IMG/VR virus record: IMGVR_UViG_3300007276_000035
Span: 1-64,000 of that record
Length of the DNA stretch: 64,000 nt
Source of the DNA: a virus
Direction: 5' to 3' (one strand)
Of the stretch, positions 5,024 through 46,549 are shown one piece after another. Position 1 is the stretch's first letter. Every line of letters starts with the position of its first letter. The position numbers and the translations under genes are program-made. Under the pieces are notes generated by a model, which saw nothing but the letters and a program-made list of their open reading frames with translations, did not search any database and was not told the origin of the DNA.

Positions 5024-5075
5024 GTAAGTCATTGATTTATAAGGAAAAAAATATCCAATAAAATCAATGACTTAC
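5024..5075 (+). repeat. 52-base hairpin element, orientation 1
   Basis: A 15-base perfect stem (GTAAGTCATTGATTT paired with AAATCAATGACTTAC) surrounds an A-rich loop. The full 52 bases are the exact reverse complement of 40931-40982. It starts one base after the upstream stop codon. No T-run follows, so it is not a typical terminator. Confidence 0.9.
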
Positions 5076-5119
5076 AAAATCTGGCGATTTTACCCTAAAT
5101 TATTTTAAAACTCCAATAA

Positions 5120-5133
5120 AATCAATAACTTAC
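5120..5133 (+). promoter_or_regulatory. 14-base operator-like box, module A
   Basis: AATCAATAACTTAC ends 4 bases before the -35. It is a variant of AATCAATGACTTAC at 5062-5075 and has the same placement at 37141-37154 and 41027-41040. Confidence 0.7.
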
Positions 5134-5197: not shown

Positions 5198-5683
5198 ATG
5201 AAGATAGTAGTTGAGACGCAACACCGCGAGAACTATGGCGCCCATGATTGGGACGGTACTGGTGAGTGCCCACAGCACTGGAAGTGCAAGGGCGGCTCCA
5301 CCTACGTTATCAATAACGTCTCGATTGCTCAAAGCCTGGATACCCAGTTTTGGGATACCATCCGCAACACCATTCATAAAGTCGATGACTACTTCGAGGA
5401 GTACATCGTTGGTTTAGAACTAGTTGACGATGTCGACTACAAGCCCAACCACGAGCACTGGGACCAGCCTTATGTCTGCGATGACATTGCTACCGGCATC
5501 TTCCGCAAGACTGAGGTTGGCGGTTGTAATGAGCCTGTTCAAGCCTCGCGCAGGACACTGGCCATGGAAGATGGTAATTTGCAGCCCCAGGGCGTCGAGT
5601 ACATGATCGACGATGTATGGGTTAGCTACAGCGAAGGATGCGAAGCAGTAGAAGCATACCGACGCGCACAGGAGGCAGCGTAA
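5198..5683 (+). CDS. Conserved accessory phage protein
   Basis: 161 residues. The ATG at 5198 is preferred because AACGGAG lies just upstream and the longer frame would begin inside the promoter. The protein starts MKIVVETQHRENYGAHDWDG and holds Cys and Trp rich segments (GECPQHWKCKGG, residues 22-33). I recognise it only as a phage hypothetical. Its bases are more GC rich than those of the structural genes before it. It is the first gene behind module A, so it is probably early expressed and dispensable or host related. No function can be assigned. Confidence 0.65.
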   Translation: MKIVVETQHRENYGAHDWDGTGECPQHWKCKGGSTYVINNVSIAQSLDTQFWDTIRNTIHKVDDYFEEYIVGLELVDDVDYKPNHEHWDQPYVCDDIATGIFRKTEVGGCNEPVQASRRTLAMEDGNLQPQGVEYMIDDVWVSYSEGCEAVEAYRRAQEAA

Positions 5684-13579: not shown

Positions 13580-14040
13580 AAATACGTGATATTATATTAG
13601 AACAGGATGAGTCTCTAGCAGCACAGGTTCGGGACGAACTAGCTAGTAAGGTTGGTAATCCACCACTACCTCAATTTATATCACTACCGCAAGATGCTGT
13701 TCTAGCACGGTCAATGAACTATGCAGTACGACCGAATTTTACTATTGACTTAGCTGTAGATCAAGCAATTAGAGAAATACAGCAAGAAAGAAAAGATAAA
13801 TTAAATCGAGATAACGCACCAAAACCAAAAGAAAAAACACCTAAGCCTGACAGACCGTTAATGGACCCCGACAAGGCAGCAGCGCGTGACAGAACTAGAG
13901 TCGATTCACGCGGTAGAAAGTTAAAGCATCAACGTTATTATAACACGAAAACAGCAAAAAGTAAGGTTAGCCAGGCAGTGCAAAAGCGAGTAACAACGCC
14001 ATATGCTCGTGGTGCCGAATGGGCCGATAAGTTCTTATAA
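13576..14040 (+). CDS. Basic late protein with capsid-tag-like N-terminus
   Basis: 154 residues. It begins MKIRDIILEQDESLAAQ, one of the clearest tags, shared with 19924 and 22927. IILE would be the cleavage-type site. The body is proline and lysine rich (PKPKEKTPKPDRPLMDPDKA) with a strongly basic end, which suits DNA binding inside a capsid. Last gene of this late operon. Function otherwise unknown. Confidence 0.55.
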   Translation: MKIRDIILEQDESLAAQVRDELASKVGNPPLPQFISLPQDAVLARSMNYAVRPNFTIDLAVDQAIREIQQERKDKLNRDNAPKPKEKTPKPDRPLMDPDKAAARDRTRVDSRGRKLKHQRYYNTKTAKSKVSQAVQKRVTTPYARGAEWADKFL

Positions 14041-14500: not shown

Positions 14501-14532
14501 AAAAATCCTCGCATGATGCGGGGATTTTTTTT
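14501..14532 (+). terminator. Rho-independent terminator
   Basis: AAAAATCCTCGCA, loop TGA, TGCGGGGATTTTTTTT. The stem is GC rich at the tip with A/T arms. It insulates the 14116 gene. Confidence 0.9.
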
Positions 14533-14566
14533 GGTTGCTTGATCTCGATTTAAAAAATCTAATTAT

Positions 14567-37085: not shown

Positions 37086-37097
37086 CTTTCCCTTATA

Positions 37098-37154
37098 AAT
37101 CAATGACTTACAAAATCAAGTTATTTTAAAAGTGCTTATAAATCAATGACTTAC
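37098..37154 (+). repeat. Promoter module B with two 14-base boxes
   Basis: AATCAATGACTTAC occurs at 37098-37111 and 37141-37154 as direct repeats around TTATTTTAAAA. The left half of the 52-base hairpin seen in modules A and C is missing. Confidence 0.8.
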
Positions 37155-37158
37155 GTGG

Positions 37159-37186
37159 TTGACATATATAGTATATATGTTATTAT
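37159..37186 (+). promoter_or_regulatory. Sigma70-like promoter of module B
   Basis: TTGACA, a 16-base spacer, TATTAT, 4 bases after the proximal box, as in modules A and C. Confidence 0.85.
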
Positions 37187-40930: not shown

Positions 40931-40982
40931 GTAAGTCATTGATTTTATTGGATATTTTTTTCCTTATAAATCAATGACTTAC
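40931..40982 (-). repeat. 52-base hairpin element, orientation 2
   Basis: The exact reverse complement of 5024-5075, including the asymmetric A/T-rich loop. It sits at the head of promoter module C. Confidence 0.9.
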
Positions 40983-41026
40983 AAAATCCACCAAAAATAG
41001 CTCAAATTATTTTAAAACTCCAATGA

Positions 41027-41040
41027 AATCAATAACTTAC
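41027..41040 (+). promoter_or_regulatory. 14-base operator-like box, module C
   Basis: AATCAATAACTTAC, identical to the module A proximal box, 4 bases before the -35. Confidence 0.7.
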
Positions 41041-41044
41041 GTGG

Positions 41045-41072
41045 TTGACACGTACTGTAATGGTGCTATTAT
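41045..41072 (+). promoter_or_regulatory. Sigma70-like promoter of module C
   Basis: TTGACA, a 16-base spacer, TATTAT. The leader to the ATG is almost the same as in module A. Confidence 0.85.
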
Positions 41073-41105: not shown

Positions 41106-41444
41106 ATGGGTTTGATAGTTGATGTTTTGCGTTCAAGCGGTATGGATTGTACTGCTAACGGTGTTTCAAGTCAAAGCGATTGTCTCCTTGTTGCTAATGT
41201 TGATGGTCCTTTTGATCCAGGCGAGTATGCGCACAGGATGCCGATCGTTAACGTAGTAGAGGGTAACCTCCCCGGAACGGTTAAAGTAGTTCCAGCTAAC
41301 ATTTACAACCAAGCGCCAGAGCGCGTAATGATGGGCGGTAACTACGCTGCATCAAGTGACGCTCGCTGGAATCGCAAGTTAGAGCAGATAGCTGGTTCAC
41401 GCCAGTCTGGTGCAGTTCCCATCCACGATCGTGTTGAGGCATAA
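41106..41444 (+). CDS. Accessory protein of the module C cluster
   Basis: 112 residues. MGLIVDVLRSSGMDCTANGV, then CLLVANVDGPFDPGEYAHRM and NLPGTVKVVPANIYNQAPER. I recognise the pattern as a phage hypothetical only. Codons are more GC rich than in nearby late genes. First gene behind module C; ACGGAG upstream. Confidence 0.6.
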   Translation: MGLIVDVLRSSGMDCTANGVSSQSDCLLVANVDGPFDPGEYAHRMPIVNVVEGNLPGTVKVVPANIYNQAPERVMMGGNYAASSDARWNRKLEQIAGSRQSGAVPIHDRVEA

Positions 41445-46196: not shown

Positions 46197-46549
46197 GATA
46201 CGCCGCTTGGATCTGAAAAATCCTCAGCGTCTGGTGTAACAACTACGTTGTCTTTTTGATGGTCAGCATCAGGAACATTAATATCATTCTCTAAGTAATG
46301 CTTAACGCTACCAATATAATCATTAGCTTTGATAATCTTTGCTTGCCACCAATGCGGAAAGTCTGCATTATCTGGCGCACTGTCGAGCATCTTGTATAGC
46401 TCAACACAGTACTTGCCCATTTGAAACAGTTGCTTTTTAATAGCTGTGCGCTCATCGTCGGTATGACCTATCGATGTTTTTGCTGTTTCTTCTTCGCCGT
46501 CCTCGTTAATGATTCCAGCTAGCAATTGCATACGTTCTATTTCATTCAT
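46193..46549 (-). CDS. Conserved marine phage protein with LAG-type start
   Basis: 118 residues. It starts MNEIERMQLLAGIINEDGEE, an N-terminal element of the type E-x-x-x-L-A-G-I/L also seen at 48768. FPHWWQAKIIKANDYIGSVK near residue 64 is a conserved segment that I recognise from marine phages. Helical; acidic tail. It overlaps the upstream small gene by 4 bases. Role unknown, possibly head associated. Confidence 0.58.
   Translation of the reverse strand: MNEIERMQLLAGIINEDGEEETAKTSIGHTDDERTAIKKQLFQMGKYCVELYKMLDSAPDNADFPHWWQAKIIKANDYIGSVKHYLENDINVPDADHQKDNVVVTPDAEDFSDPSGVS

Follow-up and report, generated by a model that had tools for sequence, protein, structure and literature searches.

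The window considered here is a 64,000-nucleotide stretch of viral DNA, namely positions 1 to 64,000 of a phage record 101,655 bp long (IMG/VR record IMGVR_UViG_3300007276_000035). It contains a 52-base hairpin that stands upstream of two promoters in exactly opposite orientations. The hairpin is not a standalone unit, and its arms consist of one short site in two inverted copies. The explanation favoured with moderate confidence is that these arms are sites for a DNA-bending protein, most likely the host IHF, that the hairpin forms the distal part of a promoter cassette present in five copies, and that the loop in the first cassette (P1) was flipped once. The inversion, the five cassettes, the consensus of the site, its restriction to promoters and its recurrence in other phages are observed directly.

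The hairpin and the five promoter cassettes

The segment 5024-5075 is the reverse complement of 40931-40982 at 52/52 bases, as the earlier note on this DNA had claimed, and the match can be extended to 53 bases. The arms are indeed inverted repeats of 15 bases each (GTAAGTCATTGATTT / AAATCAATGACTTAC), and the 22-base loop between them lacks palindromic symmetry, which excludes chance as the source of its inversion. Strictly, the inversion is demonstrable for the 22-base loop alone, the arms reading identically in both orientations. The modules located 3′ of the two hairpins (about 125 bp, promoter included) have 82% identity and a common direction, which bears out the further claim that the surroundings keep their direction. 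A third copy lies outside the window, at record positions 69868-69919, in the orientation of the copy at 40931. The three hairpins (in cassettes P1, P3 and P4) are identical at 52/52 bases, compared with 70-82% identity over the remainder of the cassettes, which points to either exchange between the cassettes or a stronger constraint on the hairpin.

The cassettes are those at positions 5024 (P1), 37097 (P2), 40931 (P3), 69868 (P4) and 73680 (P5) of the record. Each consists, in order, of a distal site or inverted pair of sites, an A/T block (ATTATTTTAAAA or near to it), a proximal site and a promoter. The proximal site ends 4 bp before TTGACA, which is separated from the TATTAT-like -10 hexamer by 16 bp. 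In P2 (37097-37186) and P5 (73680-73769) only direct copies of the site are present, without a hairpin; there the arm sequence occurs without its inverted partner at 37097/37140 and 73680/73723. An additional arm-like site, exact or with one or two changes, precedes each hairpin promoter. Since the arm sequence recurs as direct repeats, a standalone or mobile hairpin element was ruled out.

The consensus of the site is RAATCAANNASTTA, with an A-tract about 10 bp upstream, and all of its 13 occurrences in the record fall within the five cassettes. A matrix derived from other phages returns exactly these 13 sites at 17.8 bits or more, and after a clear gap the next match scores no better than shuffled sequence. 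Among the remaining good sigma-70-like promoters of the record, most have a spacer of 17 bp and lack such a site. The features of the cassettes within the window, with the first genes after P1 and P3, are as follows.

5024..5038, minus strand: P1 left arm, inverted site AAATCAATGACTTAC; matrix score ~30
5039..5060, no strand: P1 loop, 22 bp, ATAAGGAAAAAAATATCCAATA; inverted relative to P3 and P4
5061..5075, plus strand: P1 right arm, forward site; better-scoring P1 arm, matrix score ~34
5119..5133, plus strand: P1 proximal site AAATCAATAACTTAC, preceded by ATTATTTTAAAA
5138..5165, plus strand: P1 promoter; TTGACA, 16-bp spacer, TATTAT, TG ahead of the -10 hexamer
5198..5683, plus strand: first gene after P1; widespread phage protein family, function unknown
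37097..37111, plus strand: P2 distal site, forward, without inverted partner
37140..37154, plus strand: P2 proximal site
37159..37186, plus strand: P2 promoter; TTGACA, 16-bp spacer, TATTAT
40931..40945, minus strand: P3 left arm, inverted site; better-scoring P3 arm
40946..40967, no strand: P3 loop, 22 bp, TATTGGATATTTTTTTCCTTAT; orientation as in P4
40968..40982, plus strand: P3 right arm, forward site
41026..41040, plus strand: P3 proximal site AAATCAATAACTTAC
41045..41072, plus strand: P3 promoter; TTGACA, 16-bp spacer, TATTAT
41106..41444, plus strand: first gene after P3; family phrog_6045, function unknown

The genes driven by the cassettes are small and of unknown function. The family of the P1 gene (5198-5683) is very common in phages, with relatives in at least 599 IMG/VR stretches (including loci L236-L315), and has no Pfam match.

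The hairpin lies directly after the upstream gene and before the promoter, and as RNA it is predicted to be strong (-22.5 to -29.6 kcal/mol, z -6.8 to -8.2). Promoter early stem-loop (PeSL) cassettes are composed of a repeated intergenic stem-loop and a strong sigma-70-like promoter. Three of the five cassettes described here combine a stem-loop with such a promoter. As in the PeSL cassettes known in T4-like phages (PMC4503421), the hairpin might act as RNA, namely as a stem-loop at the 3′ end of the upstream gene by which the transcript is stabilised or ended, the orientation of the loop being neutral. This explanation is considered quite improbable. Unlike in PeSL, the stem-loop is not a recognisable terminator, its stem being A/T-rich and not followed by a T run, it is missing from two of the five cassettes, and its arms are putative protein-binding sites; moreover, among the site pairs collected from phages the direct ones outnumber the hairpin-type ones by 158 to 21. 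An intrinsic terminator at the hairpins was ruled out, as the consensus scan made no call there.

The putative IHF site and its spacing

Published IHF sites have the core WATCARNNNNTTR or WATCAANNNNTTR and a 35-bp footprint, and most of the strongest ones carry an A-tract to the left (PMC8421141, PMC7581858). The core is fitted by 12 of the 13 sites of the record, and the remaining one, the P4 proximal site ATTTCAATGACTTAC, has a single mismatch. An A-tract or A/T-rich stretch is likewise found to the left of the core: in the flank profile of 207 non-redundant sites, A reaches 47-63% at positions -13 to -9, followed by Y/C and then by W. The variation among neighbouring sites not used as bait is concentrated at two central bases (NN); of the four central bases the first two are free, and the last two are mostly A and then C or G. 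In the lambda H' site, whose sequence was confirmed in lambdoid phage records, the A-tract lies 9 bp before ATCAA, compared with about 10 bp here. From these features, the site is most likely one for IHF, a host DNA-bending protein. No phage-encoded IHF/HU was found in the record.

The distances between paired sites peak at 34-37, 43-45 and 56 bp. Both the hairpin-type inverted pairs (p 0.0002) and the direct pairs taken overall (p 0.0002) are phased, the former at about 10.5 bp. For the phasing test the loci were clustered with the motif masked, since the motif itself links them.

We infer the identity of the protein, the activation of the promoters and the mechanism of the flip from these observations. 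In the proposed mechanism, the paired sites of the hairpin would share one A/T tract, and IHF would bind the proximal site (centre near -53) together with one distal site. The resulting bends would wrap the upstream DNA towards RNA polymerase and so strengthen the sigma-70 promoters. The positions of the site centres are estimates from the published IHF layout. The two arms are probably alternative sites, occupied one at a time, because their centres are 23 bp apart and two 35-bp footprints would overlap. An example of such activation in Escherichia coli is PglpFK with IS5 upstream, which is activated by IHF and A-tracts in a phase-dependent manner; lambda PL is cited in that work as a further case (PMC2753651). 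The sites described here resemble those IHF sites in their core consensus, their left A-tract and their location upstream of a sigma-70 promoter (PMC8421141, PMC2753651). They differ from them in the stricter and longer consensus, the tandem or inverted arrays at preferred spacings, the proximal site placed against the -35 hexamer and the presence of five copies per phage.

Several points weigh against activation by IHF. First, the motif is more stringent than the published consensus and than IHF requires: ATCAA is preceded by AA, TTA by A and then C/G, and positions -8 to -5 are pyrimidines. The lambda H' site scores -8.3 on the matrix; therefore, IHF is the leading identity of the protein and not a proven one. 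Second, the phasing of the direct pairs depends for the most part on the peak at 34-37 bp (p 0.12 when that peak is left out). Finally, a proximal site abutting the -35 hexamer could also repress.

The strictness of the motif and the low score of lambda H' are also what would be expected of a dedicated sequence-specific regulator, encoded by the phage or the host, for which the near-dyad TAARTCAWTGAYTTA would be a dimer operator and the five cassettes a regulon. The rarity of the arrangement in cellular genomes speaks for such a regulator as well: no instance of the paired-site pattern was found in 185 bacterial genomes belonging to a single class, and genomes of bacteria and archaea totalling 257 billion bases contained the exact inverted form in one stretch only. 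The dyad, however, is not kept where phages have other bases at the centre, the A-tract and the asymmetric flank suit IHF better, and no candidate protein was found among the part of the record's proteins that was scanned. A dedicated regulator is regarded as unlikely, with an appreciable probability nevertheless.

Inversion of the loop

The loop has the same orientation in P3 and P4 and the opposite one in P1. Since P4 is the most diverged of the three hairpin cassettes, and since CCTTAT adjoins the site that precedes ACAAAATC in P2, P3, P4 and P5, P1 is most simply taken as the flipped (derived) copy. With the inversion, the better-scoring site (~34 vs 30 bits) is the left arm in P3 and P4 and the right arm in P1. 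The loop appears to have been flipped once, in P1, as a past event, and nothing shows continued flipping; switching at low frequency may nevertheless take place.

The earlier note had suggested site-specific inversion of the loop or recombination between the arms. The inversion relative to the flanks stands, and the involvement of the arms is plausible; its site-specific nature is not supported. An active switch flipping the loop between the 15-base arms would account for opposite orientations with unchanged flanks, and it is very improbable. To our knowledge, a loop of 22 bp is too short for known invertase complexes. No match to a tyrosine or serine recombinase (PF00589, PF00239; integrase, resolvase) was found in the record, which may be incomplete, and recombinase-driven inversion was set aside as a candidate on this ground. 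The arms also have a separate reason to exist: they are two copies of a putative binding site that is far commoner as direct repeats without a hairpin. In L021, the one further strain that turned up, which is 99.9% identical over 8.8 kb, the P1 locus is oriented as in the window, contrary to the orientation switching among relatives that had been envisaged. A search with the pattern of loop and promoter for further strains returned L021 alone, and no relatives of the P3 gene were found for comparing orientation. Flipping of the loop by a recombinase is unlikely because of the 22-bp loop, the lack of an integrase or resolvase match and the unchanged orientation in the other strain.

A better fit is that the 22-bp loop of P1 was inverted once through template switching inside the hairpin or through gene conversion via the identical arms. 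Because the arms are identical either way, exchange or template switching can insert the loop in both orientations. Documented examples of loops inverted by template switching come from rRNA genes (PMC8794818), and loop inversion between inverted-repeat arms of hairpins is described by Kelchner and Wendel 1996, as cited in PMC9653739. The case of P1 resembles such inversions by template switching or arm recombination in that a loop is inverted between inverted-repeat arms with unchanged flanks. It differs from the rRNA inversions, which typically comprise 4 and up to 7-8 bases, in the 22-base length of the loop and its location in a phage regulatory element (PMC8794818).

Elsewhere in the window, a 36-base imperfect inverted repeat (75%) at 13794-13829 / 14525-14560 encloses about 700 bp.

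Occurrence in other phages and significance

The site is present in about 100 diverse IMG/VR phage contigs, as direct or inverted pairs at the preferred spacings of about 36, 44-45 and 56 bp. The direct arrangement was found in 95 IMG/VR stretches and the inverted arrangement with exact arms in 16, one of which is the other strain of this phage. When the central four bases were left free, many loci among the matches listed kept the flanks with different centres. Loci of P1-gene homologues, which were fetched by protein and not by motif, have the site upstream in good part, often as 36-bp pairs, and these sites end in either TTA or TTG.

Among isolate phages, 88 records match a 31-base consensus along 80% or more of its length, and none matches the reversed control. 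Most of the isolate records among the matches listed belong to one group of near-identical Vibrio phages with the site upstream of the terminase gene. An example is Vibrio phage 1271 (L125 2507, record position 46545), where a single site with one mismatch precedes the terminase small-subunit gene by about 200 bp; in this group the site lies near the record end and may be an IHF site of a cos region. No nucleotide relatives of the P1 module were found in isolate phages, and short-query BLAST against plasmids and E. coli genomes gave mostly chance-level matches, none of them informative.

The lone hairpin-type match from a bacterial genome (L027 4671-4728) is in a 9.5-kb contig of a Leucothrix metagenome-assembled genome, perhaps of phage origin. 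Tandem sites occur in very large phage contigs of 344 kb (L083 and L099, one contig), 337 kb (L072) and 293 kb (L075). In several phages the site lies inside the loop of an apparent G+C-rich intrinsic terminator (for example CCCTCG-site-CGAGGG-TTTTTT), terminator and binding site being merged (L012 13167-13228, L020, L014, L024 and L025; also L036, L038 and L096).

IHF-type sites, PeSL-like cassettes and hairpin loop inversions are known kinds. No description of the strict motif in spaced phage arrays was found in the literature searched, most subscription literature being outside the reach of the search. A more far-reaching proposal, to which only a rather small probability is given, is that many tailed phages have in common a previously undescribed regulatory code, in which a strict and extended site of 28 bp (A-tract, YCC, WWWA, AAATCAANNASTTAS) is arrayed at spaced intervals ahead of promoters. 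In its inverted form, the orientation of the shared A/T loop would pick one of two mutually exclusive sites, and a flip would be a heritable promoter setting.

If the explanation by host IHF is true, many environmental phages use spaced arrays of sites for a host DNA-bending protein at chosen promoters, and a simple sequence rule would be available for finding the genes so controlled in unculturable phages. The inversion of the loop offers a clear natural case of micro-inversion mediated by a hairpin in the regulatory DNA of a phage, and its effect on site strength can be put to a direct test.
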